Origin: Isoetes taiwanensis
Taxonomy: Eukaryota > Streptophyta > Lycopodiopsida > Isoetales > Isoetaceae
Assembly: GCA_021234155.1 (NCBI GenBank)
Contig: JAJEKV010000124.1
Span: 682,001-746,000 of the forward strand
Length of the DNA stretch: 64,000 nt
Direction: 5' to 3'
The position numbers and the translations under genes are program-made. This document shows, piece by piece, positions 1,888-40,231 of this stretch; within the stretch, counting starts at the first letter, position 1; each line of letters starts with the position of its first letter. Under the pieces are notes generated by a model that saw only the letters and a list, made by a program, of their open reading frames with translations, searched no databases and had not been told where the DNA came from.

Positions 1888-4086
1888 ATGGCAGAGGTAA
1901 CTGTTCTATTAATTTCGGCCAATGACAATGAGTAATTCTTTTTTGAATACAGAAACTGAAAGGCCAATTCCGGGTGGAGGTGCCCAAGAACTGCTTGCCC
2001 TACAAAAATCAATATAATCCGGAAGGGAATGGTGTCGATGAGAATGCTCTTCGAGCTTACGGTGCAATGAATATTGATCTCGGGCGTGGGGGAATCAGAT
2101 CCCATCGATCCGATCACCGAAGACATCCCAATTTCATTCTCCATCGGGGCTTATTCATTTTGCCCGTAAGGGTAATCAAGGATGCCTTGGCTATTGCAAT
2201 AATATTTCAAGTAATTTGATGTGCATTTGAGAACAATGTACAATCAATTGTGTGGAGTGCATTGCAATATGGTAGCACATTGTAATTACCTCCAACAAGG
2301 TGTAACTATTTCTTAACCAAATGTGTCTAAGAATACGTAAGAACCGCAAGCTTCCAATCAAAGGTTGCTTATGGAGGTGGAGTCACTTAAACAAGGATTG
2401 AAGAGATGCTCGAGGACAATGATAAACCGGAGAGGAAGTTAAAAAAGACTGAAAATGACACCCTTGGGCATGAGGGAGAGGAAAAAAAGAACTGAAGGCC
2501 CTAAATATACTTGCCCCTAGTGGTGGGGGCTTTTCAAGAAGAATCCACGCTATTAAAAATCTGGTGGATCCTACTATGGCTGAAAAGAAGAAGAGAAAAC
2601 CTTGTAATATGGCTAGTTTGTTGAAAAAGCTTGTAACTAAAGATGATGTTATAGATATGTTGAAGCTTCACGGAGCTAACCATTTAAGAAAAGCCGCATT
2701 CTTTGAACATGTGCTTCTTGAATTGGGAAAGAGTCAAAGTCTTTGATAACATGCAAGAATTATGTGACAATGTGGGTATCGGTCGACAAGCTTACATTGC
2801 TCTCTTTAGATGTTTGCGGGATGGTATCAAGCAACAGCGTGGTATTACGAAGACCATACCGCCAAGACTCGTTATGTCGAGCAAAAGCGGAACAAAGAGG
2901 AATCTGTATACACGAACATTTGGGATAGATGTACCAGATCACCACATCCGTGCACTTGGGATCACTAATCCTTTGGGAAAAGTAAGAAGAAGGGTGGCTC
3001 CGGAATGATCTATTTGTTCTTAATGAGAAGAATAATTGTTGGATGAATCTCTCTAAAATGCTTCTTCTGTTAGTTCGCTTCTATGATATGAAAGTGGAAG
3101 AATGTGGAGGGAAACTCCAAATTGCTATAAAGTTGGATGAGATGGAACTGATCAAAGGTGAAAAGTATGAGAGGGTTTCTTTGACATTAATGAACAGGCG
3201 TTGTCAAATTCGATAATGAGGAAGGGAAGTTCTCTGTTCAATCGAGGACCATATTTGGTGGATAGGGATATTTCAAGTACCGGAAGAAAATCATGGTGTT
3301 CTTCAGTGGGTCTTTCAGCAGACACCTATACCTACTATTATTGCTGCTCATGGAGTCGGAGAGAAGCTTCAGGTTCCTGGCTACGGAGATTATGAGGTTG
3401 AATGGCATCTGGCTGCTGATCTAAAGACCATCAAGTGCATGTATAACATGAAACATGGTTCTGGTAAGACTACCCACGCATGTCCTTACTGTTTGTATGC
3501 TAGGGTAGATGATAAGGGGAAGGGAATGAGTACTCTCGAATGTGACCAGAATGCTGAACCAACGCGTGAGAAGGAGGACAAAACTTTGATCCCCGTACTT
3601 GCAATTCCTGTGAAGAGAGTACATATTTGCACTCTCCATGCCTTTCTAAGAATAGTGGATAAGATGGTGTACATGAGCATTCTTTTTGCTTGGAATAAGT
3701 CTCCACAATCAGCCAGAGAAAAGTGTATGAAAGATGTTGAGAACGTGCTTTCTGATCTTGGTCTTCATGGTGGTGACTATAAAATCCTGCAAGATCCTAA
3801 GAAGGGAGACAAGGTTCCTTGTAAACCATCTATGGGTGGGGTGAAAGCGAAGAGATTTCTGCCTTGTACTAAATTACGTAAGAATGGATCATTGCCAACT
3901 GGAAAGTGGGAGGGGTATAAGGACTTGCTGGAAGCAGAAGATGACCGTACTTCACGTGGGAGGGCAAAACTAAAGAAAATTAAAGCGTGGCAGAATCTGA
4001 GCAGTCTGGTAACTTTGATGGCAGAGAAGAAAATGGTGGGTGGAAAGTTAGATGAATTCAGAGTAAAGCACGAATTCATTAATTAG
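1888..4086 (+). pseudogene. Transposon-type CPYC gene, decayed
   Basis: The gene can be followed through several frames. A proposed first exon (ATGGCAGAG, 1888-1896) is followed by a GT-AG intron (1897-1952, 56 bp) and an exon reading KLKGQFRVEVPKNC. Later pieces lie near 2564-2746, 2703-3008 and 3010-3200. The best preserved part runs from about 3270 to 4086 and carries VEWHLAADLKTIKCMYN, then THACPYCLYARVDD, then HICTLHAFLRIVDKM and LGLHGGDYKI. This order (a WHL..DLK block, a CPYC Cys pair, a conserved H-x-C-x-LHAF segment) resembles large uncharacterised proteins linked to repeats in algae, early plants and invertebrates; I cannot name the family. Stops and frameshifts make it a pseudogene. 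The C-terminal part of a gene of the same kind survives at 14367-14868. Confidence 0.55.
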
Positions 4087-4436
4087 AGAAATTTGGAATT
4101 CTCGTTTAGCATGAATTAGGTTAGCGGGTTGCCATATAGTGCAAAAACTACTACCAATTGAGTAAAAGTTGGCGTTTTTTTGCACAAATTCTGCAAATGC
4201 TTCAGTCTTATTCGGAAATATAGTTTTTACTGCTAATGCAAAGGTTCACCGCGAGTATAACGTAGTAGGAGGGAGTGTCAAAACTTCTCGCAAGAAGCGC
4301 GAACGCGATGTTTCGCAGCTGAAAGGAGACGAAAGAATGTGCCTTTTATTAAAACCATATGAGAGCATTGTGTTAAAAGAAGGTACCGAGGAGCAAGGAT
4401 ATCACACAAAATTCAGTATTTAAAGCCATGTAATTG
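4087..4436. other. Convergent intergenic stretch with unit-0 palindrome at its edge
   Basis: The stretch lies between the 3' end of the + strand CPYC-type gene and the 3' end of the - strand methyltransferase-like gene. An open frame at 4169-4423 has no recognisable features. Beside it, at 4446-4459, lies a degenerate copy of the unit-0 palindrome core (ATCGCGGTCGCGAT). Confidence 0.4.
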
Positions 4437-7400
4437 CTACAGAGGATCGCGGTCGCGATTATTTTTAGCATTTAACATATGGTAAAAGATATGGGTAAAG
4501 ACAAAACCAAAGTTTTCGAAACAAAAGTTTTCATTGAAGGATACTTGATCAGGTATCACACCCATTTCATTGGCCATGCGATGGACATGCTCTCTACCCA
4601 ATTCCATAGCTTGTGTTGTGTCCATCTCTGAATAACCTGTGACCTCTGGAATCTGAACACCCATGGCGTTTGCGATGCGCTGCAGATGTGAATCAGGTTC
4701 CCATTCTTCACTGTCCACTGCACTGCTCCCGCCTATAAGTTCGTTTTGCAGTAGCTCCGCAGCAGTAGCATTCTGAGGTGGATGATAGAGCTTCTGCTTC
4801 TTGCTGTGTACCTGATGCTCCTGTGACCCAAGAACCTCATCTTGGTCAATGACCATGTGCTGTTGGTCTGCTTCCATGTGCTTTGGGTCTGTTTCCATGT
4901 GTTCTACGCCCACGTATTCAAACTTATGTTCGCCTGTCAAGAAAGGCATGTACCCATCAAGCTTCTCATTAAGTGCATGCAATTTTTGGAAAGTGGGCTC
5001 CAGGGCTTCTATACCTTTTTCCGTCTCTTCAAGCAAGCGCTTTGTTTCTTGCATTCTCTCTTCGTAGGACTTAGCATCGAGGTTTTCCAAAATGGAACCC
5101 AACTTTGATAGATCTGTGTTTTGGGTGATACTGATGTCGGGTTGAGCTGGATCAGGGTCAACATTCTCTGCTTTCGGCTCGTCCTCAAACCCATCGGCAC
5201 TTGGATTGGCCATCTTATCAAGCGTTTCAAAGAACGCCCTCAGGAAACGGCACACTTTACCTGAACTTTCGAAAGCCACGCTCTTTTTGCCTTGCATAAG
5301 AGCAACACGAGAAGCCGCCCCGGTTAAAAAGAAATCGAACACAACCATCAGTCGGCACCAGCTGTTCAACAATATGGTAGGCATAGGAGGTTTTCAGCTG
5401 GCATTTCAATACAAGATCTCCTTCCATTGCCGCCCATTTGAATCTTGGTTTGCCTGTAAAAAGAGTCTGATATTTCTTTTTTATCTTCTCGTCGGCATCC
5501 TCATTACCTGTTAGCGGCATTGGAGGCAATGGTGTTGACTTAGGAGCCTTGCCGTGTGGATATAGGTGAAGCTCCAACTCTGGTTGCACAGGTGCTACAC
5601 GAACATCACTCCTGTTAATGCACATATGACTAATAAAGTACTGATGTTCTTTCACCCTTCTTTTGCTCTCCCATCCCATTTCTTCATAGGAACCTAAAGA
5701 TAGGTAGCCACCGCCCTGAATTTGCTTCCTGATGAACAAGCAATTGGGCAAATTCACTGAGCGCATGATAATGACCAAGTGATAAACTTTGGCATCCGTC
5801 ATGGTAGCTATCCTTGTAAATAGATCTGTGTATTTCTTGCAATCCCATACCTTGTTTATCCCTCGGATGTCAATAAATATCAGTGTCGCATTCTCTGACA
5901 CTTGGGAGGAAGTAGGGATGCCATCCTTTGTCTTTGCTATGACAATATTTTTCTTTTCTTTTCTTTTTCTAGCCTCTTACGGCTTTAGAATATTCCCCGA
6001 TTGGCTCCAAAAGGCTGGGTAGGTTACCTAGTGTATGATCCTTGTTATAGTTAGCCTTCACGCACTCTGTATCGGTGATCGATATATCCAAGATATTCTA
6101 CGTTCGGTGAAATCGGGAAAAGCACGAAGCAATTCCTCCCAAATATATCGAAATCCTTTTGCAAAGCAAATTTGAGGCATAAGACAAAATTTAGCGCCTC
6201 ATAAAAGTGAGGGTTACGATGTCAATTGCCCGTTATGCGCAATCAAATCTCCCGCTATAACCTTATTTGCACCTTTAAATAGGTCTTGCCTTCTATAATC
6301 TCATCGATTGTTGTGTGACAACTCAGATTCGACATACCTCGTAGTAACCGGAGCGAGGTCTTGTTAAAGAAGTCTTTGGATGGCTTGTCGGAAACTCACC
6401 ATGATCGTCACTGAGTTTACGACTCACCCACAGACCAGCAACTTCCATTAACTTCTTGAAAACCTTCTCATCCATAAAAATGAATTGCTTTTCATCCTTA
6501 AGCTCCTGCACTTTCAAGGTGGTCGTTGCAATTTCATGGAAATCCTGCGAAGCAATTTCAAGGTCATCAAGATGTGGCCTTGAACTTGGCGAGTAGAAAA
6601 CAAATAAATACCTTCCAAGCTGAAGTTTTAGTTTGTCCCTATAGGTCCTTGTGGAGGGCAACCATAAGCCTTGGCCGATGACGGTTGTTGCGGTTTTCAA
6701 TCAGTGGCTCTCGTACACGGTGTTTGCAATTACTTCATTGCATTGAATACTCAACTCTATATATTCCTTTGTCAGAAGATTTCCGTCAAGCACCCTCGAT
6801 CTTCTTCTAGCATATACTTTGGCAAATTTCGTTCTTTGCTTTCGAACTTCACGACGACCGAACAAAGGAGTTGTGCAGCACAAATACTGTGGTTGCCAGA
6901 AATAATATAAAATTTCTTGCCCTTCAAATCTTCTGGATTGCTCCATGTCACCCTCCTCCTGAAAGATAGACAACCGTCAGGTCAAATCTACATAACGAGT
7001 GTCCAAAAGATAAAGAATTAGTTACCTGGTAATAGGGTCAAACGGAACGGCGCAAAGGGGGTGAGGACCTCGTCGGGTATGTCTTGAAGCTTTTAACCAG
7101 AGTTTGAACATGATCATTTGACCGCATTCTGTGTGTCAAGTTTGCTGGTGCAGGTTCACAATCAAAAATAGAAATCTTTGTAAACCAATTAACCCCTAAG
7201 GGGTAGAACCTTTTGAACTGTTCAAGCTTCTGAGTGGTTTGCTCTGCCATCTTGCGTTCCTCTTCGGGATTGAACTTCAACTCGACTGGAATGGCAGGTG
7301 CTTGGGGCCATGTCAATGCTAGTTTAGAGGAGGCATTCGTAACTGAGGGGGGGGTTTGAGAACTGCTGGGCTGCGGGCTATCCTCACGAGGTGTCAGATT

Positions 7401-8665
7401 CTTAAGGCTAATTTTGAAAGGAGGGAATTTTTTGGGAATAAATCCACCAGATGTATTGCTATCTGGGGCCTTCATAGCAATAGGAAGAGTAGGGTTAACA
7501 ATACCGGAGGGGTTTATCGTGGATTGTGGTTCTTGAGCAATTTCTTTTGGTGCTGAGGTCTCTCCCAAAGTAGCAATGGGCTTCACACTCTTTTTCTTGG
7601 CCACGGCTCTTAGCCAATTGGTGTCCATCACGGAGGGCATCTTCGTCCCCGAACCGCTTTCAAGGCACGGCTTCGGAGGCTTCTTGTGCGTAGACAAACC
7701 ATTTCGCATGTCGAGAACCCGAGCAATATATGTCTCGTTTCCCTTTATACCGACAAAAGAGAGATTCATAGGATGGCAACAACCAGCCATACCCTTAGCC
7801 GACGTCGGGGACGTTTTTTCCCAATGGGTCGGGCTTGTTCATTTTTTGTTTGTCATCAAAGACGGGTCATAATTGCGCCATTTCAAAATGTACTCTTAAA
7901 CCGCAATGCTTGTGGGTCCTCAATCGCATATGATGGCATCTTGCACATTGTTCTTCGTGCTTTCCCACATTGCCACCACTATGCCAACTTGTTCAACGTC
8001 CTCGGCTTTTTTCCGGTCTTGTAAACGAGCCTGTGTCCTTTCTGCGATCACCCTTAATGTGCGGTATTTTTCATTGGAAGGGGTTATAATACGGACTGGC
8101 TCGACATCTGGTCCTCAGAAGAGAGCAAGTGCTGTAAACAAAAGCCTGTAGTGAGTGCCTGGTAGGCTGCATAATGTGGTGCAATAAAGAGGTTTAAACT
8201 ACTGTAGAGAAACGCGACCGCGATCCTGCCAAGCAGCTAAAATAGAACTCCACACAATCGCGGCCGCGACTTTGTGTAGCACTTAAGCACGGCAAGAAAA
8301 CATCGATGTCGCGAAATATTCTGACCTACTACACTAGTACTGATGAACATCGCAATAAAGAAAATCTATGCTCAGCCAGACCGCGACCGCGATCTTGATG
8401 AGCAGCTACACTTATGAAGACCGCTATCTGGAAATTATAAAACCAATCAAGCAAGACCGCGGCCGCGATCTTGATGAGCAGCTACACTTATGAAGAACGC
8501 TATCTAGAAATTATAAAACCTATCAAGCAAGACAGCGACCGCGATCTTGCTGAGCATCTATACTTGTGAAAACAATAGAAGTTCTAGTAGGCAAGATCGC
8601 GGCCGCGATCTTGCTGAGCTGAAATGTTAGAACATACATTCTCTGACGGAGTCCTTAGGTGCCAT
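4437..8665 (-). pseudogene. ParB-like / DNA amino-methyltransferase fusion, decayed
   Basis: Exon 1 (8665-8638) encodes MAPKDSVRE and ends at a GTATGT donor. The next exon begins after TTTTGTTTACAG at 8131 and runs, with stops, to 7026, where a 67-bp GT-AG intron (7025-6959) follows. The text across that intron looks like a ParB N-terminal domain: NDHVQTLVKSFKTYP, then about 6922-6874 GKKFYIISGNHSICAA, matching the family's IIdGnHR..Aa. Further on, 5883-5842 reads LIFIDIRGINKVWD, in the place of a DPPY motif IV, and 5348-5264 reads VVFDFFLTGAASRVAL followed by FES, in the place of motif I (FxGxGs). That order (IV before I) is the beta class of N4-cytosine/N6-adenine methyltransferases, which in phages and plasmids are often fused to ParB. 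A Glu-rich helical tail with repeated H-M-x-x-D units follows. Both catalytic motifs are altered and there are several frameshifts (about 7075, 6700, 5350) and stops. Confidence 0.6.
8213..8614. repeat. Unit-0 palindrome cluster in the first intron
   Basis: Six copies of a GC-rich palindrome lie inside the first intron (8637-8132) of the ParB/methyltransferase-like gene: about 8213-8228, 8257-8270, 8378-8398, 8451-8474, 8527-8550 and 8591-8614. The last is a perfect 24-bp palindrome with half-site GCAAGATCGCGG. The others keep the centre GCGGCCGC or GCGACCGC. Copies from 8378 onward sit in a 76-bp tandem repeat (starts 8378, 8454, 8530) that also repeats GATGAGCAGCTACACTTATG. Confidence 0.85.
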
Positions 8666-9700
8666 GGGATCGCGGGCGCTGGTTCAGTACGAAATATGGG
8701 TTTTTTTGGAGTGGGTCGGGGAGCGCTCGGAGGTCGAAGGCGCTAGGCGCTGAATGAAATCGCGGAGTAGAAATTAGTTTTTGAATGTTTTGGGTTTCAA
8801 TTTATAGAACGCGGCCGCGGAAATTAAATGCCCGCCCCTCATGATGGCGCGTGAAAAAACGTGCCAGCCATAATGGCGTCGTACGCCGGCAGTAATAATT
8901 ACCGGCCGGCCGCCCGTATTTATTCCCTGACATTAATGCGGTCGTGCGAATATACCCGTCCGGAAAGGCCAGTAACCCGTACGAAAGGTCTTTATCCACT
9001 TAGACGTCCGCGTTCAATTTCGGGTCATAATTTCGGACCTGACACTTTATCCAGCCATAAATGCCTCCAAAATATCCGGTTTACGGACGGACAGCGACTG
9101 CAAAATTTGAATTCGAGAACAAACCAATTCGAGAAAGCGGGAAAAGCCAATTCAAATTTCATTGTTTTGCAAGATCTTCGAGGCGCTGGAGCTGCGCCTA
9201 AGCTGGGCCAAGTTTGGGCAAGGATTTGCTGCAGAATTCCGCATCCATTGAAGGCGCTGACGAGGGCGCTGATAATCCGCTTGCAATCCGCCACTACACA
9301 CTCGGAATTCTGCAACTGCATCGAATTCAGGGTTTCTCCCGAGGTAAAAGGCCTATTCTGATGCATATCCCTCACTGAAGTGAACTGTACGTATCAGCAA
9401 TGCACTGAATTTCAATTATAACTGCAACCTCCGAGTCTCTGCACTAACATTCACTATGTATTGCATGGATTGATAAGATACCTCCTGATACTTTGTTGCA
9501 ACTATGTAAAAATAGATGTTCTAAGCAAAACTGTGCACTCTGGTGTGTTTATTATACAATGTAAACGTGTTTCAAGTATATACTTTCTTTCTCTATGTGA
9601 ATGAAACTAAACACTGTTTTTATGACACTAAACACCGTATTCTGTGAGGTAGGAGTAATGCCGTATTCTGTAAGTCTATCGTTTAACTTTGATGCTCCAC
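8666..9700 (-). promoter_or_regulatory. 5' region of the ParB/methyltransferase-like gene
   Basis: This stretch is upstream of the start codon at 8665. It is GC-rich with several GGCGCT motifs and contains stretches such as GCGGCCGCGGAAATT. A similar GGCGCT/GAGCGCC-rich upstream region precedes the exon at 63598 in unit 2, which suggests a shared promoter architecture. Open frames here (8861-9361 and its antisense) overlap each other and look spurious. From about 9380 to 9700 the sequence is AT-rich without a supported gene. Confidence 0.45.
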
Positions 9701-9993
9701 GAGATCGCGGTCGCGATACCTTCAACCATCTACACTTGCTATTGACCAAAGAAAACCCAGATATCGATAACTTAGAGTTGAACCCACTAGCTAGCCTCGA
9801 AATTTGATTTGCACGAGTTCTTATTGAAACAGCTAGTGTGAATGCTTGCAACTAGCGCGACCGCGTTCTTACCCATGCTCGATAAGATCGCGGTGGCGAA
9901 TGTCGTGACCATTTCTTATTTTTCAGTTCATATTTTTGGTAGTGGTTTATGATCACAGTGTTTTCTGCTCACTAGGATCGCGGCCGCGCTATT
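9701..9993. repeat. Unit-0 palindromes upstream of the DUF8039-DUF7869 gene
   Basis: Degenerate copies of the GATCGCGGCCGCGATC core lie at 9701-9720, 9855-9871, 9881-9900 and 9974-9993. They precede the coding part of the + strand gene that starts near 10017. ATGCCGTATTCT followed by GTAAGT at 9659-9676 could be its first exon and donor, which would place the palindromes in its first intron as in other genes of the window. That exon call is tentative. Confidence 0.7.
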
Positions 9994-10016
9994 CACGACC
10001 TCTTGTTTGGAGGATG

Positions 10017-13000
10017 GCTGATGTAATTCCGCTGTATATGCTGGGGAAAAAGGTGGCAGAAGGAAGAGTCCACAATTTCGAGCGCCATCACAACCGGACG
10101 GTCGGGAGGGTATGGTTGTCGCTTCGATTGTGAATGTTCCGATGGATACATTCGCTACCAATTCCCGAATTGGAAATAGAAAAAATGGGTGAAGCTGTGG
10201 GGACTTTTGTGTTGTGGTACAAGAAGGACATTGTTGCTCCACTAGATAGACATGAGGAAGCTTGCACCCCACCAGGTCAGATAAAAAGGATAGACTGGCA
10301 GGACAGAGGGAATGAGGGGTTAGCCACTAATGAGACGACTCATGTGCAAGGGCTTTCTAGAGATGAATTAGTTGAGAAGGCGTGCACACTCATGCATGAA
10401 TGCTGCTACATGGCTTATGCCTATGGTGTTATCGTTTTTGCCGATCCAAACCATGCTGTGTCTGACGTGAAGTTAGGGGAAGGCTCGATAGCTGCTACTA
10501 TCATGAACATTTTTCCAATGCCTGAAAAGATCTCTATATTGTTGCCAGGGCACGCGCGTAAATGCCCCAACTGCATGACCTTGTGAGATGGCCCATAGCC
10601 CTCGTGCTCGTTGATAACATTCCAGTTTCTACTCTTGTGGTTGCGGTGAAGGAGAAGGATGTGGAGAATGAACCTTACTCCATTAGACCCGAAGTTGGCA
10701 TCACCAAAAAGAGACCTTACAAAGATGGTCAATTTTGGAGACCCGAACACGCCCAAAGACGGACTAAATGTGAAAAAAAACTAGTGCTGAGGCTATTCTA
10801 GACTTCAGGTCATCACTGTGCTGCATGAAACGATGTTGTGCAAATTTTACATCCCAGGAGATAGCTTGCATGAGAACCTTTTACTGGAACATGAAGTCCT
10901 CGGAGCGCACAACTTTTGCATATAACATGCTAGATCTTTGCTCTGAAAATGGTGTAGTCCGCAAACTGATGTTGAATAACAAACAGGTGTGCGTGAAAGC
11001 ATGGCATAAAGCCTATGGCATTCCCATTTCCACTTTTTACAAGTGGAAGAAGCTCTTCAATGACGGCCACAGAATTGCTGAGCACGGAAATACTGGGTCT
11101 AAGCCAAGGTCTCATACTTTTACCGGCAATGCCGCGGCTATCCATGTTCATAGACGAAAAACGCAAAGACGATGCCACACCGCTCGAAAATTACGAGCGA
11201 GGGTAACAGACAAAATGTTAAGAGGCTACCTTCGGTCTTGACTAAGAAGGATATACACCAAGAAGTAGATATTTCCGTTACAGAGATGGAGGCAAGCATA
11301 TTTCTCCTTCGTCATTTAAATGCGCTTGGAAAGAGAATCATTTGAGGTAGCAATAGCTAAGAGGATAGCATTTTCCAAGTGTAACACCTGTATTGTCATA
11401 AAGGAAAAGCTTGCTAAGACCAGAGATCCAAACGAAAGAAGGGTACTTGCAATAGAGAGAAAATCACATATGACGGCCCAGATTTCATGCAGGAGCCTTT
11501 ACTGGTCCTGGAGAGCTTTGTCGCATAGATCTCCTGAGCACGCTTTAACCATTATACATGATAAGATGGATCAGAATAAGACCATGGTCCCTCGTCTAGA
11601 GAAGCTAGCAAAGTCTGTATGGAGGGGTGAACGACTGAAGGTCAGTGTTACAGGTGCTCTCATGCACGGCCATGGTATAGGTGCCTTGGGCCACTTCTCA
11701 CTGGACCTCTGGCCTGATGATTCTAATTTTCATGTGGGATCCTTGAATCATACCTTGAAGACACTGGAGAATAAATCTGAGGATAATTGGGGCCATTTGA
11801 GAGATACTGATCGTCCTGAAAGCAGCTGGGGTGCAGCAATTTTAAACACAGATAACCTTAGGACAAAAATGATGAATGGCAGTAGAAATGATTTTATGCC
11901 TCCTATCAAAGGCCCCATGGTAGCGAACAAGTTGCCTAGGAGGCTTTACTTGCAGCTAGATAATTGCTCAGGTCAGAATAAGATTAGATATCTTTTCTCT
12001 TACTTGTCATACTTGGTTTGGTTAGGTGTATTTGATCAAGTGCGGTTTGGGATTCATGATGGTTGGACACACCCACGATGACATAGATGCCCTATTTGGA
12101 AACTACTCTACTCTAATGAGAAGATCAGATGCATTGACTATTCCGGAGCTTATGCAACTCTTCAGGCAGTGTAGTTCAAAGGCTCCTTCACCTTACCTTG
12201 TGACAGAGGTTCCTGATTGGAAGGAATTCGTGAAAGGATTTATCCCTGATAAGAAGGACCGTTTATGTGGTCACTTGGAACCTCTACTCTTCAAGTTTTG
12301 CATGAAGGATGGATGGCCACTAATGTTCTACAAGATGAGGCGGGGCATAGGGAGTGGCTCCCCGAAAAGGGAATCAGAATGTGGAAGGAGGATGCCCAAG
12401 GTTTACCTATGATTAGGGAGAGGGTCACCTAAGGTCCTGCAGCCATATGGGAGCTTGAAAGATATAGGTGCATTAAGAGCTTCTATTGCCAAGTACATGA
12501 TGCACTGGGCAGCTATTTCTAGAGCTGGCGATAAGTCATGGTCCAACACATATATGAATGAAGTTATTGACTACTGGTCCACCTTTTTCGCTGCGAAGTG
12601 CTAGGTGACGTGCAGCCAGAGAGAGTTGTCATTCAGGATTTCGGCCAAAGCACTGAGGCAAAGTGCATTGGAAGAACCCGAAAGAGTGTTTGTGGATGAG
12701 CACATTGAAGCATCTCATTACGTAGGGCCTTTCGGGTAGACCCAAGAACCCGGTTGAAATATTCGACCCCTACCAAGATGTCAAGAAGGGAATGCTCTTG
12801 CTAATCGGACCACATGATAAGCGCCCAACATGGATGGCTTTTTGCGAACAGACCCAAAGAGAGGACCCTAATCTCCCACATTATGAAGAGGTGTTTGTCT
12901 CTTGGTTTGAACCTCGCTGCCGGAAAGGGAACCTCATATGCAATGCAGTATAGGGATTGTTGGAGCAAGAATTGGAGACCCAATCCTAATGACCCGCCAC

Positions 13001-13140
13001 GCTACCAACCTTTGAAAACAATAGACTATGGTTGGGCCGTAGAGACCAGGCCATTGTCAGTGGTGATCCCCAGTAGTGTTCGGGCTCAGTTGCAAGAATT
13101 AGTGGCTAAAGAAGCTAAGGATGATGATGAGAACTCTTGA
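10017..13140 (+). pseudogene. DUF8039-DUF7869 transposon-type protein, copy 1
   Basis: The N-terminal part (about 10017-10260) reads VIPLYMLGKKVAEGRVHNF, VNVPMDTF and LPIPELEIEKMGEAVGTFVL across two frameshifts, which is the DUF8039 pattern ending in AVGTFVxW. Near 10980-11110 follow VCVKAWHKAYGIPISTFYKW and EHGNTGSK, a helix-turn-helix-like block. From 11320 come FSKCNTCIVIKEKL, HDKMDQ, LDLWPDDSNFHVGSL, LQLDNCSGQNK (about 11950) and, after a frameshift near 12040, VGHTHDDIDALFGNY. This is the DUF7869 signature. The tail keeps WRPNPNDPPRY near 12970. The conserved Asp and His residues suggest a nuclease or transposase fold, but that is inference. Stops near 10586, 11241, 12412 and elsewhere make it a pseudogene. 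It converges on the small gene at 13279-13521, as its paralogue does on the small gene at 50803. Confidence 0.75.
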
Positions 13141-13278
13141 GGTATGCAATGCTCTTTTACATAATTACTATATCATTCATAACATGAAAGTTACAATAGA
13201 CTAGTTATTATTTGTTACGCTCTGCGTTTTCCATCTCAACACAAGAGCTCTTACACTATACAATGCTAAACAGGTGAT

Positions 13279-13521
13279 TCATTCACCTTCAGGATCTGTA
13301 GTAGTGATCCCTGATATCTCATAGCTCATTTGCTCAGGAAGCCAAATCAGATGGATCATTACACGAATTGACGCAGGGCAATGAATCTCAGCGCCCAAAG
13401 CTTTTCTTCGCAGGTAGGGATCAAGAAGAAGATGCCTGTCTAGGCAACCAACAAGATCAGAGTGGCTCATTGAGCACTTGATCGCCTCGATTTGGTGAAT
13501 TGAGGAAGGCAAATAATCCAT
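13279..13521 (-). CDS. Small conserved-family protein (CxM..DLxxC), copy 1
   Basis: This 80-residue intact frame belongs to a family with five members in the window (also 13942, 19031, 19424, 50803). It reads IEAIKCSMSHSDLVGC, LLLDPYLRRKALG and IRVMIHLIWLPEQMSYEI. The shared pattern is I-x-C-x-M-x-x-x-D/N-L/F-x-x-C, then a (L/M)DPWL-like element, then RVxIHL...PERQxYEIxxIT. I do not recognise a known domain and assign no function. The next copy lies upstream on the same strand and carries a similar promoter (TTTTATAGTGA.GTA.AATTATTGA), so the two arose by tandem duplication. Its 3' end faces the DUF7869 gene. Confidence 0.65.
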   Translation of the reverse strand: MDYLPSSIHQIEAIKCSMSHSDLVGCLDRHLLLDPYLRRKALGAEIHCPASIRVMIHLIWLPEQMSYEISGITTTDPEGE

Positions 13522-13941
13522 GTGAGAGGAATGAACTTTAGCCCCGAAGTGAGATGCTTTTATAGTGAGGTAGAATTATTGAGGTGAATCATTGGGGTAG
13601 ACTTCGGCGCCATTATTGCTCGTGTATAAGACCGTTGTATAAATACAAGTATAATACATCTTTCGTATGGATATATGTATGCGTACTAATATGCGTATGT
13701 TTCAAAACATGTTTGTTTTGACCTAATTTAGCTATGATTGAATTCAATGACAGCTTGCAGAATAAGTGGAGGTGGGATAGCACATCGTTACAATATACTC
13801 AGTTAAGGTACGTGATATTACATCCTTAATCAGAATGCTATTACATCCTTACTTAATTATTAGGTACCCATGTCATTATTACATTATTAGCAGGTGCAGA
13901 TTCACTGGTCATCAACATCAAAGCTCGTGGATGCCATTCAC

Positions 13942-14142
13942 TCATAGATCTCCGATCGGGAAGCCGTAAATATGGACTTTAACGCGAGTGAGCTTCCTGC
14001 AAGCACTAGCAGGTCCATCAGCTTTAGATAAGAGCCATGGATCAAGCTTAACGCTATTTCTAGCGCATTCACCCAGATCGTTGTAGCTCAAGTAACACTT
14101 GAAAGAGCGGATGTGCTCTGGACGAGGCATCGAGGAAGCCAT
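13942..14142 (-). pseudogene. Small conserved-family protein, truncated copy 2
   Basis: The frame starts MASSMPRPEHIRSFKCYLSY and keeps NDLGECA, VKLDPWL and LTRVKVHIYGFP. It then stops where the other members continue into PERQxYEINxIT. Downstream bases still encode fragments of that tail (VNGIH) past the stop, so a small indel or stop has cut it short. The promoter-like sequence at about 14160-14345 resembles 13555-13740 of copy 1, which shows that the duplication included the upstream region. Confidence 0.6.
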
Positions 14143-14366
14143 GGAAGATGAATGGCCTCTACCCCCTCGTGAAGCCGTTTTTATAGTGAAGTAAAATTAT
14201 TGAAGTGAATTATTGGTGTACGATGTAGGACCATTATTGAGCTTATACGAGTGTCATGTACACGTACAAGTATAACACAAAATTTGTATGTATATGTGTA
14301 TGTTAATTACCTCATGTTTGTTGGGGTCGAGTACTAGGTGAAAGTATTCGTGCTTGAGCAAATAAG

Positions 14367-14868
14367 TTGTGCTCAAAATTCTCAAAATTGCGTTATTTTA
14401 TCCAATTAATGAAATCATGCTTAGTAGCAGTAACTGAATTCACGAAGTCGTTTATACAAGCATGGGGAGAATGCAATGTCACACATTACATTCATATACT
14501 TCACGCCCATGGCTTGTGGTTTGCCAAAGAGTACGGGAGCTTGGGAATATGGAATACGCAGGGAATGGGGAAGTCACATAAGCAAGCCAAGAATGCTTTT
14601 TTCAGGTTCACACAATATCGAGGTTCGTGTGGTAACTCATTGCAACAGATGTGACAATGGTTCTATAGAAGGATTATCTGCAAGCTAGAGAAAAAAGATA
14701 AAGCTAAACAAGACACGACGTTGGCTAGAATATTGAGGAGAAAAGTTGAGCAGGAAAAAAAGAAACAGATATGGTGTAGCTCTAGTGCAGCAGACAAGTT
14801 AAGGCAGTGGCGATCCACAAGGATCAGACAGGGTAGAAGATATACTTCTGGGGAATCAATTGTATGAA
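14367..14868 (+). pseudogene. C-terminal remnant of a CPYC-type gene
   Basis: The piece reads FIQAWGECNVTHYIHILHAH, GLWFAKEYGSLGIWNTQGMG and FFRFTQYRG, then shifts frame into a Lys/Arg-rich tail (RRKVEQEKKKQIW). The YIHIL..H and yG.l...qg.. blocks are familiar from the C-terminal end of large repeat-associated uncharacterised proteins, the kind represented by the gene at 1888-4086, whose own end is missing. I infer a broken 3' fragment. Nothing N-terminal is found upstream. Confidence 0.45.
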
Positions 14869-14937
14869 TAAATTCATATTAATGTATAACTATTGACCAT
14901 GATGTGCAACTATAATGTTTCAAATATGTTAGGTTGG

Positions 14938-15127
14938 CAGCGTGGGCACGGTGCGAACTTAGTTGGTATTCAATTGCTGAATGACAAGTATTCGCACCGT
15001 GGCCACGGTGCGAATGAAGTTGGGAATTAGTTATAGATTAACTGCTATTCGCACCGTGGCCACGGTGCGAAAGCATTTGGTTTCCGTGGCTATCTTTTGC
15101 CGTTTTCGCACGGTAGCAACGGTACTC
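14938..15127. repeat. Unit-1 palindromes upstream of the histone-fold gene
   Basis: Two perfect 24-bp palindromes with half-site TTCGCACCGTGG lie at 14991-15014 and 15048-15071. They are flanked by degenerate copies at about 14938-14957 and 15102-15127. They sit just before a probable 3' splice site (TTGTTGCATTACAG ending near 15232), so they would lie in a 5' intron of the next gene. Confidence 0.9.
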
Positions 15128-15242: not shown

Positions 15243-16571
15243 ATGGCACAGAATAGCGGTAATGCCGGATCTAACAATCCCAACAACCAAAGAACAGAAG
15301 AGAAGGCGCCGTCTGGGCGCACACATCATGGTGAAGACAGCGAGGGCAGCGCCACTAACTATGTCAGTGCTTCTAACAACCAGAACAGAGCACCGTCTTC
15401 CGAGCCAGAAAACATCCATCAAGCAGGTCTGGACGCTGTAGTTCAGAATGTTGCCAATGACGCAGAGGAGATTTTTAGAGACATACCTTCCGAGCCAAGG
15501 CGTGTTTACCTGTTCTCTTCTGGCCATTTAGTCGGAGAAGGAACCTTCGTGCAGGCAGCTGTCTGTCATGGAGTTCCTGTGCCTGATGATTGCATCGTCG
15601 TTAACGTCGATGTGGTAGTTGCACCAGACACGACGTTGCCTGTTCCTTCGATGGGAGCTGACACCTTGCTTGAGGCACTCCATTCCTTCGTCGTGTGGCC
15701 CAGGTTGATGGCTTCTTTGACGCCAACTCCTAACACATTCTCTGTACTGGCTAATGAGATAGATTACATAACCGGACTTCCTCGTAGAGTGCCGGAAGTT
15801 GGATTGGTGGAGATAAACCAGGGGCCAGACTTGCTTGGAGCCGACAATGAGAATGCTAAGCCCCATGAGGATGACCATCAGGATGTGCATGTCCAGGATG
15901 TTCCTGTTGCTGATGTGCCTGTCCAGAACGTTCCTATTGCTGTTCAGGCAGTTTTTGAACCCCTGAATGTTATGTACCAGGGTGTCCCTATCCAGGTCCC
16001 TGTGACAGCTCAAATAGAAGAAAATATCGTTCTACAAGAGGCAGCTGCAGTACCTGTGACGGTTGTGCCTGAAACCGTAGTACCAGATGCAGTAGTGGTT
16101 CCTGTTGATGAGCAGCCTGTAGTCGCGGAATCCAGTAGACGTAAGAGGAAGACTAAGCCTAAGCAGCTGCAGAAGAAATAGGTTCTCTGTAAAGGCCCTC
16201 CTAAGCGGAATAAGAAGGGCCAGCCGTTTAATCAAAAGTTAAGATGGATGCGCGAAATCCGGCACTTCCAGAACCACGTGGAGTGGGTGCTTCCGAAGCT
16301 CACAATGGCTAGAATATGTAAGGAGGTGCTTCAGGAGAGATACAATAAGATGAAGAGGGATGGTGCAAGGTACCGGAGTGCTGGTTACAATTTTCCAATG
16401 CCAGAAGAGGTGACTCGATTCACTGCAGATGCCCTTGATGCTCTGCACGAGGCCGCTGAGAATCACATGGTCAGGTTCTTCGAAGACTGTGTGAAGTGTG
16501 CTGTGCATTCCAAGAGAGTGACAATAATGAGGCAGGATATTGCCTTGACAAATTACTTCCGAGGCATGTAA
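15243..16571 (+). CDS. DUF8039-histone H3-fold fusion protein
   Basis: The start at 15243 (GACAATGGC) has a good plant context and follows a likely 3' splice site. Residues about 75-160 read RRVYLFSSGHLVGEGTF, GVPVPDDCIVVNVDVVV, LPVPSMGADTLLEA and FVVWPRL, the DUF8039 pattern. A Val/Pro/Asp-rich linker and a basic stretch (SRRKRKTKPK) follow. The C-terminus reads MREIRHFQNHVEWVLPKL, then ALDALHEAAENHMVRFFED and CAVHSKRVTIMRQDIALTN, which aligns with the histone H3 fold (REIR.YQ, LQEA.EA.LV..FED, CAIHAKRVTIM..DI.LA). There are about 20 extra residues in loop 1, and the canonical H3 tail is absent; CENH3-like variants also have long loops and divergent tails. One in-frame TAG at 16179 separates the parts. 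A 54-bp GT-AG segment (16141-16194) would remove it in frame. Otherwise it is a nonsense mutation or readthrough site. Confidence 0.75.
16141..16194 (+). other. Candidate 54-bp intron removing the in-frame TAG
   Basis: The segment begins GTAAGAGG and ends GTAAAG. Its length is a multiple of three, so removal keeps the frame and joins the DUF8039 part to the H3 fold without the TAG at 16179-16181. Introns of 56 bp (1897-1952) and 61 bp (20638-20698) elsewhere make such a short intron possible. The weak pyrimidine tract argues against it. Confidence 0.35.
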
Positions 16572-16660: not shown

Positions 16661-16798
16661 AATGCACCGTTGCCACGGTGCGAAATGGGTATAAATTACT
16701 TTGTGAGGGCAGGTATTTTCGCACCGTGGCCACGGTGCGAAATTCCTGTAAGTTACTGTGTGAGGGCAGGCAATTTCGCACCGTGGCCACTGTGCGAA
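16661..16798. repeat. Unit-1 palindromes downstream of the histone-fold gene
   Basis: There are three copies. 16661-16684 is near-perfect, 16718-16741 is the perfect 24-bp palindrome, and 16775-16798 has one mismatch. They are spaced 57 bp apart in a loose tandem repeat that shares TTACT.TGTGAGGGCAGG between the palindromes. They lie within 100-230 bp after the stop codon, so they may fall in the 3' UTR, where they could form strong hairpins. Confidence 0.9.
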
Positions 16799-17046: not shown

Positions 17047-17520
17047 TTAGAAAAAGTAATTCCACAGGATGATACTCACGGAAGAAGAGCGGACCCAACT
17101 CCACAAAACCTCGTTGTAGTACACCCTAATAAGGCCATACATCTGTCGCCGGTTAATTTCATGAATGAACTCTGATATGTATGCATCCAGAGAGTGTGCT
17201 AAATATCCAGCACGAAGAAGAGGCCTCAATTGCTGTAGCATCTCGTCCAGATAAGGAGGGGGTTCAAGAAGTCCCCTCATTGCAAGTCTCCTATAACATT
17301 CAGATGGATTAATTTCCATCAGTGGCTCATGACCACAATCAAATCGCTCCAGAATGAAGTTGATCAACTCCATTGTAAGCTCCTTGGTGGGACTGTGGCG
17401 CAACCTCCACTCCAAGAAATGGTCCCATAGCTCATCCATTCCAGGCCGCACAGAATGCCTGGGGCATGCTTGCAGGCCTTCTGGAGTGGCCCAGGGAGGA
17501 TTCGGTCCAATCATTTGCAA
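17047..17520 (-). pseudogene. Helical-family protein, copy 1 (frameshifted 3' end)
   Basis: This 157-residue frame starts MQMIGPNPPWATPEGLQACP and continues MDELWDHFLEWRLRHSPTKE, HEPLMEINPSECYRRLAM and LEPPPYLDEMLQQLRPLLRA. It looks mostly alpha-helical, and I do not recognise the family. The copy at 49779-50314 has GTACAAC inserted relative to this one after YYNE, and that copy continues into a conserved ELGPLFFREYHPVELLFAM. Here the 7-nt deletion shifts the frame and ends the protein early. A third, more distant member lies at 18404-18763. The start codon faces a purine-rich tandem repeat and a likely divergent promoter. Confidence 0.6.
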
Positions 17521-17760
17521 AGAGCACGAAGATCAAGTAGCAAAGAACAAGGAGCACGAAGATCAAGTAGCAAGGAGCATCAAGATCAAGTAGCAAGAAG
17601 CAAGGATCAAGGACGATCAAGGAGCAAGAAGATCAAAAAAGAAGGAAGATCATGGAGCAAGAAAGCAAGGAACAAGATCAAGTAGCAAGATCAAGAGCAA
17701 GGAACAAGATGAAGTAGCGAAGAACAAACATCAAGATCAAGTGGCAAGGAACAAGGAAGA
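17521..17760. repeat. Purine-rich tandem repeat (GATCAAGTAGCAAGGA)
   Basis: Imperfect units built on GATCAAGTAGCAAGGA and GCACGAA fill this stretch just upstream of the helical gene's start. A homologous block at about 50325-50600 holds the same place in unit 2. It is a leader or promoter minisatellite, not coding. Confidence 0.8.
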
Positions 17761-19902: not shown

Positions 19903-20080
19903 TGTGTGTAGTCACGGTGCGAAATTGCACACTCCAAAAATGCTCGCACTGTGGCGACGGTGCGAAATAGACCTTCCCACAGAATGTGGAATAGTCATTT
20001 TCGCACCGTGGCCACTGTGCGAATATTAGTTAGTTGTAAGTACAGACAACACAGTTTTCGCACCGTGGCCACGGTGCAAA
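19903..20080. repeat. Unit-1 palindrome cluster 3' of the gene at 20179
   Basis: Four copies: a half copy at about 19903-19924, a degenerate one at 19942-19967, one mismatch at 20000-20023 and one mismatch at 20057-20080. They lie within 280 bp after the stop codon of the - strand gene at 20179-21702 and before no other gene, so this is a 3' placement like 16661-16798. Confidence 0.85.
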
Positions 20081-20178: not shown

Positions 20179-21702
20179 TTACAACTTCATTTTCTTAGAA
20201 ACATGTAAGTCATCGGACACTTCGACTTCTTCCAATTCGGACTCCTGCAGACCAACATCCAACAGGTACATAAGGCGAGGAATCTGGGGCTCCCTCTCTT
20301 CCCAAGTCAGTCGAATTGTAGCCTTATCCACGCCGGACAAGGCCAATGCAGCTCTACTGGCAGCCATAGAATACATACTAAAGCCACCAAAAATATGCGT
20401 GGCGATATCTCTCCTAACAGCCACTACTCGATCAGAATTGGCAGATAATGGGATGTGATTACCAATCAACGAGAGGGCCTTGAGTTTCAAGACCTCTTCT
20501 GGTCCATATGGGCTGTACTTAGAATGGAACACAACGATCTCTCCCTTATAAAGGTAGCCCATATAGTGGGCGATACTTGCATCTCTGCCAAGGGTAACTC
20601 TGTCATGTCTGGCGCAAAAATCGTCCACAAAAATCTCCTGCGCAATAAACAATCGTTCTTAGGCACTTAACAAAATAAGCAAACTTATGGTAGCTTACCT
20701 CCACTTCATCAGATGCAATAACCCCTTTGGTAGAAATGTTGATGGACGACCTTGAAGAGCTTGATTCGCTCTTTGATACTTGTTTTGCACTATCTTTTTT
20801 AGCTTCTGATGTACTCGCCTCGAACTTTACTTCTGAGACTTCCTTCAGGCCCATTTCTGCCATCTCCAGAACTCTATCAAAAGCATTCTCAGGAGCTATT
20901 GAAGTTCCATCATAGAGGTTAAGAGATCATGCAGGTCCCTAGGCACTTCCGGCTCGAAATCAATGAAGTCGTCTAGACCAACAACGAAAGCATAGATTTG
21001 TCCAAGGACCTCATCTTCCCTCAAACCAGTAATGGAAGATATATCGTGGAGAAGAAGATAGTCCTTCCCTCCTATGATAACTGGCAAGGCTTCCGTGACA
21101 CCCCATCTATCAAGATTCTCTTCATGCTCGTCTACGTCTTCATCCTCGTCCTCGTCGAGCTTTTCCACCAGTTCCTTCTCTTTCTCTGCATCAAATACCT
21201 CCTCTACAGGTGACTGAGGTTCTGCAATAGCCTTCACCTGTGGTTCATCCCTATCTGTTGGTGGAACCGTATATATCATGTAAGTAGCAAACATGATGTC
21301 AACTGGATATAAATTATCCTTCCCGTCCTTCTCACATAAGTCGGCTGGCAGTCTCTTGAACGACCTTCGAACCTTATCTTGGTCACCTTTGGGAAAAAGC
21401 TTCAGAAAGGACTTTAGACTCAATACAATCTTCCCAGTCGAGGGAGAAGGACGCGCTTCAGTTTCTGCCACGGCCATGAAACTCTGAATGTACTGACCAT
21501 ACACGTCAATGTGTTTGTTGGCCTCGGAGATTATATCTACCGTTAGGCAGAAGTTATTGTAGACTACAGTGGCGTCTACCGGGTTTTCAGGCTGTTGAGC
21601 GAACTCATCTGGGTGTGACAGCCGATACTCTGCTTCCTTCCGGACGATCTGGTCATACCATGCCCGAACTGTTCCCAAGCTTTCTCGACCGCCGTTTGAC
21701 AT
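20179..21702 (-). pseudogene. Unrecognised acidic intron-containing gene, one frameshift
   Basis: The frame starts MSNGGRESLGTVRAWYDQIV and includes FLKLFPKGDQDKVRRSFKRL, an acidic stretch of repeated D-E residues near residue 190, and GGKDYLLLHDISSITGLRED. Near 20910 a one-base shift is needed to continue into PENAFDRVLEMAEMGLKEVS and a Ser/Lys-rich region. A clean 61-bp GT-AG intron (20698-20638) then joins DEVE to EIFVDDFCARHDRVTLGRDA. The last exon ends ELEEVEVSDDLHVSKKMKL. Apart from the frameshift the gene is well preserved. I do not recognise a family. The unit-1 palindromes flank it on both sides. It may be functional if the frameshift is a sequencing error. Confidence 0.6.
20638..20698 (-). 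other. 61-bp GT-AG intron
   Basis: On the - strand the intron begins GTAAGC and ends TTTATTGCGCAG. The frame is open across the join (ASDEVE to EIFVDD). It helps to set the intron size typical of these genes. Confidence 0.8.
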
Positions 21703-21789
21703 TGCGGAATTGTAGCGCCTCCTTTAGTCCAATAAAAACCTGATAAGCCTTAAAAGTAAGTGCCGCGAGTGACGGTATGAAAACTAAAA

Positions 21790-22028
21790 TGTCTTAAGTG
21801 TCCCGACGAAATATGTCGCGACCGTGTACGGTCTGAAAACAAATATAAACGCGCCAAAGACAACTATAAGGTATTCGCGACCGCGGGTACCGCGGCGACA
21901 TTTGCCGAAAAGAAGGCCAAATTTATGTTAGCGCAAAACATGCTACACCGCGGGCCACGGTCTTGCGAAACTACACAAACGACTACCACGAACTCCACAT
22001 GTTTTCGCGACGGTGGCCACGGTGCTAA
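21790..22028. repeat. Degenerate unit-1 palindromes between two - strand genes
   Basis: Decayed copies appear near 21805-21830, 21870-21895, 21945-21965 and 22004-22028. The last reads TTCGCGACGGTGG followed by CCACGGTGCTAA. They lie just upstream of the start codon at 21702 and downstream of the next - strand gene, so they fit either a promoter or a 3' position. Confidence 0.6.
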
Positions 22029-22315
22029 CTTTGCAAAAGGATTTAAGTTACAACACGGGATTTGAACCAAAGAATAACACCATTGTTATTTATTTGTTTA
22101 ATCGTTTCTCACTTAAAGAAAGTACAACGGGGAGGCATACTGAGCTTTGTTGTATACAATTCTTCCCTACGTTTTCCTACCTTGACATCATCCACCAAAA
22201 ATGGAAGACGTTTAAGTCACATTTCGATTCCAAAATAATTCTTACATCAAATAAAGACCATGCTTCTTCGACTTTTAAGGTTTTAAACAATTGACCACTT
22301 TTGAAGATAGCAATG

Positions 22316-23310
22316 TCAATGACCGCGAGAATGTGTACCATCAAGATCGCCTTGTTCCTTTGGAACCCACGCCCATCTGCTCCCTTCTTTTACTTCCCTC
22401 CATCTTACGTATTTGAAGGTAATGTAAACTGTTTGCTTTCGAATACAATACCGATTAACGCTTTCTTTCTTTATCCTGCACTGTACCTTCTCAACTCCTT
22501 CATGCAGACGGGATGACCATTCATCACATAAAATGTCATCCAGAAACAACTGACAATCACTTACAGTAAACATTTTTGAAGTCTTCTTGACATTCTCGAC
22601 ATTCTTAAACAATGTAATAAACATATCGATGGGTACATTTACTTTCACGTGTCCACAGACTCCACCTTTCTCCTTCAAAGCACTGAAAAGTTTCTGTGAC
22701 AATTTCAGCTTGGCAAGAAACAAAGAACTGGAATCCATTGGGCAGGAACTAAGCTGTGATAATGGGGGCAATGATAAGTCCACAATTTTGCCTTTCCGAG
22801 GATAATACTCATATTTTAAGAACCAAATCCCCCTTTCCCGCAGCTGCACTTCTGTTTGACCTTCAAAAAGCAAGGATCCAATATCATAATAGAAAGCACG
22901 GAAGATGCTTGTGATAGAACTCGATGGTTCCAGGTCCAGCACATCGGAAATACAGAGCCCTGAGATACCAGAAACCCAATTAGTTGATTTCTTCAGAATA
23001 TAATGAATGACGGATTAGCACAGATATAATGAAACTCACAATTAGCACTGGCTTCGGGGAAATTACGTCGAGATCTTATCTTTTCTTTTCTCATGTCTGT
23101 CGGTGTGTATAGGTGTCTGACCTTGATATATACTTCCCCTCTCACCTCGAACCCGACAACAATAGCCTTCCAATGGCTTGAAATAACATTTCTCCTGCCT
23201 TTGATCACCCGGTGAGGACCTCTGAGTGGCGGTCGGATTGTAATGAAGCTCCCAAGAAATATATTGAAGCAGCCGAAATCGTTCTCAGCTGTGACAGAGG
23301 TAATCGCCAT
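22316..23310 (-). CDS. BAH-like domain protein
   Basis: Exon 1 (23310-23040) reads MAITSVTAENDFGCFN, then HWKAIVVGFEVRGEVYIKVR and HLYTPTDMRKEK. An 80-bp GT-AG intron (23039-22960, GTGAGT to TATCTCAG) joins it in frame to WLCISDVLDLEPSSSITSIF, RAFYYDIGSLL and ERGIWFLKYEYYPRKGKI. The order (V.VRHLY.P.dm, then lciSDvlDlePsssI, then a beta-rich end) resembles a BAH domain, where chromatin proteins show vrvrWFYRPEDT, eLFLSdh.D..pv.sI and so on. The match is by pattern only. The rest (to 22316) includes LKEKGGVCGHVKVNVPIDM and FLDDILCDEWSSRLHEGVEK and is unrecognised. An AG at 23311-23312 directly before the ATG suggests an upstream non-coding exon. Confidence 0.5.
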
Positions 23311-33311: not shown

Positions 33312-33324
33312 TTTGCTGTAACTA

Positions 33325-33336
33325 GCTCTGACACCA
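33325..33336 (-). other. Copia primer binding site (tRNA-iMet)
   Basis: In element sense it reads TGGTGTCAGAGC, one base from the usual TGGTATCAGAGC complementary to the initiator tRNA-Met 3' end. It lies directly inside the 5' LTR. Confidence 0.85.
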
Positions 33337-33337
33337 A

Positions 33338-34190
33338 TGTTAATATCTTGACATCAACATTCAATAATTCCACTATATATTTTGCACTAAGTACTCAGAT
33401 ATACTTCAATATCTCAATCAATCTCATTATGATTTAACTATTTCATATGCATCAAGACATGAAGAGAACTCAATTCAATGACTAAGTTTTCACAAATTCT
33501 CCATTAGTGCTAACTCAAATCCACACTATTGACTTAGACAATTTTATGCTAGCATTATACAATGATATCTTCAAAGACTCAATAGTTCTTATTTCACAAA
33601 AATCTCGAACTCACTAGTCTTACCAGCCGATCTATCTCCTGTATCTCCCTTATCCATCTATTCTCGTTGTATTTACATAATTGGGCCCGGCGGTTGTGGC
33701 AACCACCGAGCTTCCATAACCTGCCTGTGCCTTTGTGATTCGACCGATTCCGATCATTCATATACTGTCTATACACTATTGGACCGAGGTTCAGCAATAG
33801 GTCAACTTTCCAAAAACAAATATTCGTCAATGGCTTATCCTTCACGAATGAATTTCAATGGTTTAGCATGCACCCAGCGAACTTAATATATAACTGCTCT
33901 CCAACCATTGACCTTAATGTACACCTGCTTTCTCATTGTTAATGATTTAACTTTAAGCTGCTCAAATAATTTACTGTGCATACAACCATCAACCCTAGTA
34001 ATACACCTGGGTTCATATTTTCCTAGATCACAGGGCACAGAATTATTTGTGCTTGTTCCATAGCTGAATAATTCAATGTCACTGCCATGTTCCAATCTTC
34101 TAGAATCCCCTTAGACTCATGACTTTGCTTTGGATTTTTTTATGTCAAATAGGCAATCACATGAGCTATCATGAGATGAACTTTCAAACA
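33338..34190 (-). repeat. Copia 5' LTR
   Basis: It matches 28171-29039 almost throughout. The inner edge at 33338 is followed at once by the primer binding site. Confidence 0.95.
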
Positions 34191-40133: not shown

Positions 40134-40231
40134 CTTTACACGGAAATTGAACTCAAATGGGGCCAAAGAAGCATCTTGAGCCTCGCTGAACCACCGAGGA
40201 GACAAATCAACCAGAATTAGTAGGAGTAAGC

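Follow-up and report, generated by a model that had tools for sequence, protein, structure and literature searches.

The window, by which we mean the whole 64,000-nucleotide stretch of the Isoetes taiwanensis genome analysed here, contains a plus-strand reading frame that runs from an ATG at 15243 to a TAA at 16569-16571. A preliminary description of the sequence had placed the segments MREIRHFQ, ALHEAAENHMVRFFED and CAVHSKRVTIMRQDI at the C-terminus of the encoded protein, and this single frame holds all three. The frame lies within a TIR DNA element of the type that we call class A, the features of which are as follows.

1456-23697, no strand: class A TIR DNA element, window copy, with ends CATTAGAG... 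and ...CTCTAATG, interrupted by insertions (homology to two copies)
3220-4065, plus: gene 1, transposase-like, first part (no Pfam match better than E 0.04)
4066-14422, no strand: 10.4-kb insertion in gene 1, holding a DUF7869 ORF at 11320-12078; foreign to the H3 element and missing from element copies A and B
14423-14867, plus: gene 1, second part, past the insertion (DNA continuous with the first part in element copies A and B)
14934-15071, no strand: palindrome array upstream of the fusion gene, 3 x 24 bp in a 57-bp phase (0 expected in shuffles)
15243-16571, plus: H3 fusion ORF consisting of N-domain, linker, basic stretch and H3 fold, interrupted here by a single in-frame stop (translation, Pfam, open relatives)
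15423-15782, plus: N-domain common to class A and class B fusions (hhalign of A against B 99.7, E 3e-26, 118 columns)
15618-15704, plus: motif common to the N-domain of 61490-61927, the 'DUF8039 pattern' of the preliminary description (hhalign 91%, E 1e-6, 52% identity, 29 columns)
16137-16178, plus: basic, NLS-like stretch RRKRKTKPKQLQKK preceding the H3 part (translation)
16179-16181, plus: in-frame TAG of the window copy (a sense codon in continuous copies)
16182-16568, plus: H3 fold with alpha-N, alpha1, long loop 1, alpha2 and alpha3 (Pfam Histone, PDB H3 chains)
16341-16409, plus: extended alpha1 end and loop 1, ~20 residues beyond canonical H3, also in class B (alignment)
16661-16798, no strand: palindrome array downstream of the fusion gene, 3 x 24 bp in a 57-bp phase (0 expected in shuffles)
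17050-17532, minus: ORF that adjoins several copies (no Pfam match)
19943-20080, no strand: palindrome array near gene 3, 3 x 24 bp in a 57-bp phase (0 expected in shuffles)
20182-23014, minus: gene 3, with ORF pieces 20182-20658, 20899-21723 and 22319-23014 (likeness to class C ORF2)

The C-terminal 129 residues match the Pfam Histone profile (PF00125) over residues 9-123 with an E-value of 1.2e-18 and a score of 67.9 bits, against a curated cut-off of 26.4, and they match H3 chains in the PDB at ~2.5e-13, which bears out the H3 fold proposed in the preliminary description. A profile built from nine rows of the H3 part reaches 172 distinct PDB sequences at E<=1e-10, and all 60 among the matches listed are H3 or H3-like. 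Loop 1 is longer than that of canonical H3, as had been noticed, by ~20 residues in the alignment. The canonical N-terminal tail with K4, K9 and K27 is likewise absent, as claimed, and has been replaced; class C, described below, keeps only remnants of it, near residue 30. A single-sequence structure model of the H3 part is poor (pLDDT 57) and has helices at residues 18-66, 75-109 and 120-127; when it was searched with Foldseek, 0 matches reached E<=0.001, and the 50 matches listed of 198 include no histone. The corresponding model of the N-domain has a pLDDT of 36 and is uninformative.

The frame is divided by an in-frame TAG at 16179-16181, missed in the preliminary description, which separates a 312-residue N-part from the H3 part. 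In four relatives (L003, L013, L014 and L015) the frame is open from the shared ATG to the end of H3 and the position of the TAG is a sense codon. Long open frames are also present in L002, L016 and L017, with the N-region partly altered in L002 and the C-terminus altered in the other two. Because the frames of the four relatives are continuous, the N-part and the H3 part form one gene in this family, and the window copy, with its stop, is a defective member; two separate genes are ruled out. A genetic code in which TAG is read as sense is disfavoured, since TAG terminates all three class B ORFs seen.

For the N-domain the preliminary description fared less evenly. It had assigned the domain to DUF8039, the accession of which we take to be PF26133; the N-part gave no DUF8039 match at E<=1 in a Pfam search of a library without PF26133, and a literature search in which subscription journals and preprints were outside the scope found no paper on DUF8039. 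The pattern had also been said to recur in two DUF7869 genes. It is supported at 61490-61927 but only weakly so at 10134-10583 (11.6%, E 0.0026), and of the two putative DUF7869 genes themselves 11320-12078 is confirmed (Pfam DUF7869, 6e-19), while 60363-61388 has weak HTH matches only. The ORF at 10134-10583, inside the 4066-14422 insertion, carries a weak LPxP...EA.GTFV.W motif, the same as in the fusion N-domain.

Homology between the window element and copies on contigs C907 and C1100 starts at 1455/1456 and stops at 23695/23697, with unrelated flanks. In the copies of classes A and B that were compared, gene 1 and gene 3 stand on either side of the H3 fusion, which takes a central position and may point in either direction. 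Of the first 50 class A H3 loci, 26 have gene 1 no more than 20 kb away, where 0.003 would be expected per locus; gene 1 has 141 matches in the genome, some of which are split pieces, and it occurs also away from the listed H3 loci. It contains the motifs CPYC and LHAFLRIVD and belongs to no Pfam family; it is possibly an undescribed transposase. The TIRs are short and imperfect in class A and ~32 bp long in the class B copy of locus D, where a class B element is nested in a class A element. That nested insertion has no target-site duplication, three class A copies have no clear one, and there is none at a MITE-like element in the class C retrotransposon described below as copy E. This 554-bp element (L060, positions 15506-16059 of copy E) shares the CATTAGAG ends of the H3 DNA elements and is inserted in the gypsy pol frame, which continues past it without duplicated bases; the uninterrupted relative L063 provides the empty site. 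The element boundaries, the TIRs and a clean empty site together support the element context.

The 24-bp palindrome of the three arrays has 158 perfect copies in the genome, and its reversed control has 0. Of 50 sites listed among the 158, 32 lie within 10 kb of an H3 match and 18 do not, as measured against 45 of the best 150 H3 matches (those seen on the relevant contigs and some others). The sites are found in class A and class B copies, with none in copy E, and the palindrome is a putative binding site for an element protein.

Judged by their translations, copia-like and gypsy-like retrotransposon ORFs that lack an H3 ORF also lie in the window, at 29056-33353 (minus) and 40190-43408 (plus). 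At L026 an ORF reading ILPDGHCLPKSRREARELLRSFGLEY, presumably CACTA Tnp2-like, stands directly upstream of a diverged class A-related H3 copy.

H3 fusions in DNA elements and LTR retrotransposons

The genome searched spans 1,658,258,908 bases in 1,110 contigs. When the H3 part of the window ORF served as protein query, all 150 scored sequences (the best 150 of 6,071 candidates) matched at E<=1.5e-18, and those read belong to class A, which includes the window type and a diverged branch A2, or to class B, which has the long loop 1 as well. Class B H3 is 41-46% identical to the window H3 and has the same architecture, with the same N-domain upstream of H3 at locus L028 (hhalign against class A 99.7%). 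An assignment of class B to host H3 or CENH3, made from identity alone, was discarded once the loci were read.

An Arabidopsis CENH3 as query matched all 150 sequences scored (of 7,073 candidates) and brought to light class C, in which a near-canonical H3 core is fused to a different N-domain. The class C N-domain shows no homology to that of classes A and B (hhalign probability 0.14%), nor to the ORFs at 17050-17532 and 22319-23014 (0.21% each). With a full 413-residue class C fusion as query, all 101 sequences scored matched (12,256 candidates), and 67 of them are stop-free. The 20 class C loci read have frames of 329-553 residues ending in a nearly canonical H3 core. Six short-frame loci (L065-L070), considered as host H3 variants, all read as pieces of class C.

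The class C fusion is the long 5' ORF of Ty3/gypsy chromodomain LTR retrotransposons, as is seen most completely in copy E (on C1064). This copy has two LTRs of 1,614 bp that are 98.1% identical and that start with TG and end with CA, a 5-bp target-site duplication CTGAA on both sides, a polypurine tract ahead of the 3' LTR and a primer-binding site TGGTATCAGAGC within two bases of the 5' LTR; a tRNA scan of the class C loci found none. The H3 fusion is the first long ORF, followed by ORF2, gag, protease, RT, RNase H, integrase and chromodomain. RVP_2, RVT_1, RT_RNaseH, Integrase_H2C2 and Chromo exceed their Pfam cut-offs, and rve scores 28.5 bits, below its cut-off of 32.6. Copy E thus resembles chromoviruses in its LTRs, primer-binding site, gag, PR-RT-RH-INT order and chromodomain, and differs from them in the additional 5' H3-fusion ORF and in the ORF2 that precedes gag in two of three lineages. 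Read against copy E, the diverged class C lineages L063 and L064 also have the H3 ORF followed by gag-pol with a chromodomain-like end; ORF2 lies between the H3 ORF and gag in L063, and gag follows the H3 ORF directly in L064. Class C ORF2 matches the gene 3 piece at 20899-21723 of the window (blastp 2.5e-6; hhalign 82%, E 1e-5, 58 columns) and, weakly, the piece at 20182-20658 (blastp 6e-4, hhalign 11%). Because ORF2 resembles gene 3, H3 may not be all that the DNA elements and the retrotransposons have in common, although the match is a modest one between single sequences.

A canonical host H3 as query returned 15 host genes at 99-100% identity and 135 diverged sequences that are 72-89% identical to host H3 in the matched part (150 scored of 9,124 candidates); most of the 135, which were not read individually, begin at H3 residue 15-30. 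Automated annotation of such genomes may count more than 100 element H3 genes as host histones. In the H4 control, 69 candidates gave 43 matches, of which 16 are normal full-length genes, and no stop-free frame exceeds 146 residues; host H4 is without comparable expansion. Host CENH3 was not found in two protein searches, in which sequences of class C type and host H3 crowded the results.

The preliminary description had guessed that a mobile element encodes an H3 variant of its own, joined to a domain of transposon type. This holds genome-wide and goes beyond the guess, with two H3 subfamilies in TIR elements and a fusion in LTR retrotransposons; the gene fusion, its element context and its high copy number are established.

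Selection on the H3 cores and their possible use by the elements

The class C H3 core is under strong purifying selection, with a dN/dS (ratio of sums) of 0.025 in the core and 0.147 in the N-part, calculated from 16 ORFs with 81 of 120 pairs usable for the core and 84 of 120 for the N-part, the others being saturated or too close. Six young class A copies have values of 0.80 in the N-part and 1.38 in the core (14 and 15 usable pairs of 15, respectively), and pairs of class A with the A2 branch (L019-L021) have 0.20-0.28. In class B the deeper pairs give 0.13 and the closest pairs 0.32-0.50. Copies therefore drift after insertion, since the young class A values are about 1 or above, which reveals no constraint from that time on, and the closest class B pairs are at 0.32-0.50.

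H3 parts could be extracted from 43 of 50 sequences; L018, L022, L023, L024, L026, L028 and L030 have no frame spanning both H3 motifs. Across 15 rows compared (five class A, four class B and six class C) the residues R49, R52, R69, R83, C110, H113, R116, V117, T118, D123 and L126 are kept. C110, H113, R116, T118, D123, R83 and R69 belong to the H3-specific four-helix bundle or to the DNA contacts of H3. Classes A and B have lost K56, R63 and R129, to which L019, a diverged class A copy, adds the loss of C110; the fit of these two classes to the nucleosome is less certain for this reason.

We are close to certain that the fusions are element-encoded H3 proteins. For the window, we lean towards the reading that its ORF is a stop-broken copy of a transposon-encoded H3 variant, the functional variants of which would pair with host H4 and carry an element-specific domain into nucleosomes. 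It is by marking the tails of H3 that hosts silence transposons. In the mechanism that we propose, the H3 part would pair with host H4 and be taken up by host H3 chaperones, and the fusion H3 would enter nucleosomes or tetrasomes. The N-domain and linker would there replace the normal tail, giving nucleosomes without the standard K4/K9/K27 context, and the displayed element-specific module would keep element chromatin open to transcription or transposition, or would tether element machinery. Entry into nucleosomes is probable at least for class C; an anti-silencing or tethering purpose is a tentative proposal that may well prove wrong. The stop in the window copy, the neutral look of the young class A copies and the uninformative single-sequence model of the fold weigh against the mechanism. 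By supplying an H3 of its own whose tail differs, an element would counter host silencing directly. It would also show that a nucleosome histone can become a mobile-element gene, perhaps more than once, and such natural N-terminal fusions are material with which to test what the H3 tail is needed for.

A chromatin-placed fusion might instead offer a place at which the integrase or transposase of the same element docks, a reading that we regard as fairly unlikely. In class C a chromodomain forms the end of the integrase (copy E, E 2.7e-8) and seven of the 20 class C tails contain an ARKS or ARKT motif, but the motif is lacking in the other 13 and many chromoviruses are well known to have chromodomains without any H3.

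We give even less credence to a decoy, in which the fusion would bind H4, ASF1, HIRA or CAF-1 off chromatin and block histone supply or silencing with no entry into nucleosomes. The rows compared retain the residues that face H4 and those of the four-helix bundle, purifying selection could stem from chaperone or H4 binding without deposition, and the large N-domain could hinder packing. However, a decoy would not need the DNA-facing R49, R69, R83, R116 and T118, which are kept in all 15 rows, and nearly the whole core is kept in class C.

Kinship of the H3 cores and comparison with known systems

In a tree of 41 sequences and four references, from which L017 and L053 were omitted for their altered C-termini, class C forms one group (support 90/90) near host H3, and classes A and B form another (100/97). 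The best tree of 24 chosen rows places A and B together beside plant CENH3, with a support of 59/73 and a warning of long-branch attachment. Neither a single clade of A, B and C (p-AU 0.254) nor a clade of A, B and C with canonical H3 (0.258) is rejected by topology tests. Classes A and B share P63, V82, A86, D/E87, L89 and mostly H99 with the reference plant CENH3s, and at 18 diagnostic positions CENH3-type residues number seven in A, eight in B and one in class C.

For the H3 of the window type an affinity to CENH3 is no more than suggestive, and the H3 of classes A and B might derive from CENH3 and confer a centromere-like chromatin state. We consider this unlikely, as we do the decoy. The residue counts and the best tree are what speak for it; against it, five (A) and four (B) of the same 18 positions match canonical H3 and the remainder match neither, the tree support is weak at a point where long branches meet and the topology tests leave alternatives standing, and the CENH3 references are provisional ones, with the host CENH3 not found in our searches. 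Unlike CENH3 and CENP-A, classes A and B have a far longer loop 1, keep K64 and L65 as in H3 and have no W84. The proposal of the preliminary description, that such an element could mark its own chromatin or borrow a centromere-like state, is treated here as a hypothesis.

Three of the 20 class C cores (L041, L055 and L056) have H87 and L90. These are reported as critical residues of Arabidopsis H3.3, and Drosophila H3.3 is reported to be incorporated without need of its N-terminal tail (PMC5809374). Incorporation of that kind would fit a fusion whose H3 tail has been exchanged, an inference that is loose because L90 is found in a host gene, L057, too and most of the remaining class C cores have F87. 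A wider scenario would be that two unrelated kinds of element in one plant lineage have each domesticated H3 as a working gene, the retrotransposons from a near-canonical core that may be replication-independent and the TIR elements from one derived from CENH3; each would build element nucleosomes in which the N-domain replaces the tail methylated by the host, and in the retrotransposon the chromodomain integrase may act as reader. In this full form we find it rather unlikely.

The element-encoded proteins share the H3 fold with canonical and H3.3-type plant H3. They differ from it in having ~300 residues of another domain plus linker in place of the tail, in being encoded by mobile elements and, for classes A and B, in the ~20 extra residues of loop 1. 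Viruses also encode histones, among them bracovirus H4 and the histones of giant viruses, some with N-terminal extensions; these are likewise cases of a selfish genome with its own histone, and differ in being viral and in the histones concerned.

That the H3 sequence is a passenger, picked up by accident and without a role in the element life cycle, is highly improbable: transposons often carry gene fragments, the young class A copies look neutral, and one report describes a transposon, Helentron-Cq-32A, with H4 and H1 pieces that, in eight copies, carry a stop, frameshift and indels (PMC4067079), but the class C core has kept its low dN/dS over deep divergence, by which a passenger is already disfavoured for that class, classes A and B have the same architecture at 43-45% H3 identity, the H3 ORF stands ahead of gag in three diverged class C lineages, and gene 1 accompanies 26 of 50 class A H3 loci. 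The element-encoded H3 proteins resemble Helentron-Cq-32A as histone sequence within a transposon; unlike the fragments in that report, the H3 here is subject to selection and many of its copies are intact. In the literature searched, outside which lay subscription journals and preprints, no intact transposon-encoded histone is described, the Helentron fragments being the one case that came up, and a broader search of the same scope, covering titles and the starts of abstracts, contained nothing on element-encoded H3. The word 'histone' is missing from the main text of the genome papers of Isoetes taiwanensis (PMC8566536) and I. sinensis (PMC10541799).

A final observation concerns the broken copies of class C. 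Stops occur in 34 of 101 fusions; one or more TAG codons are present in 22 of these, TGA in eight and TAA in five, and the excess of TAG may reflect decay at methylated sites.
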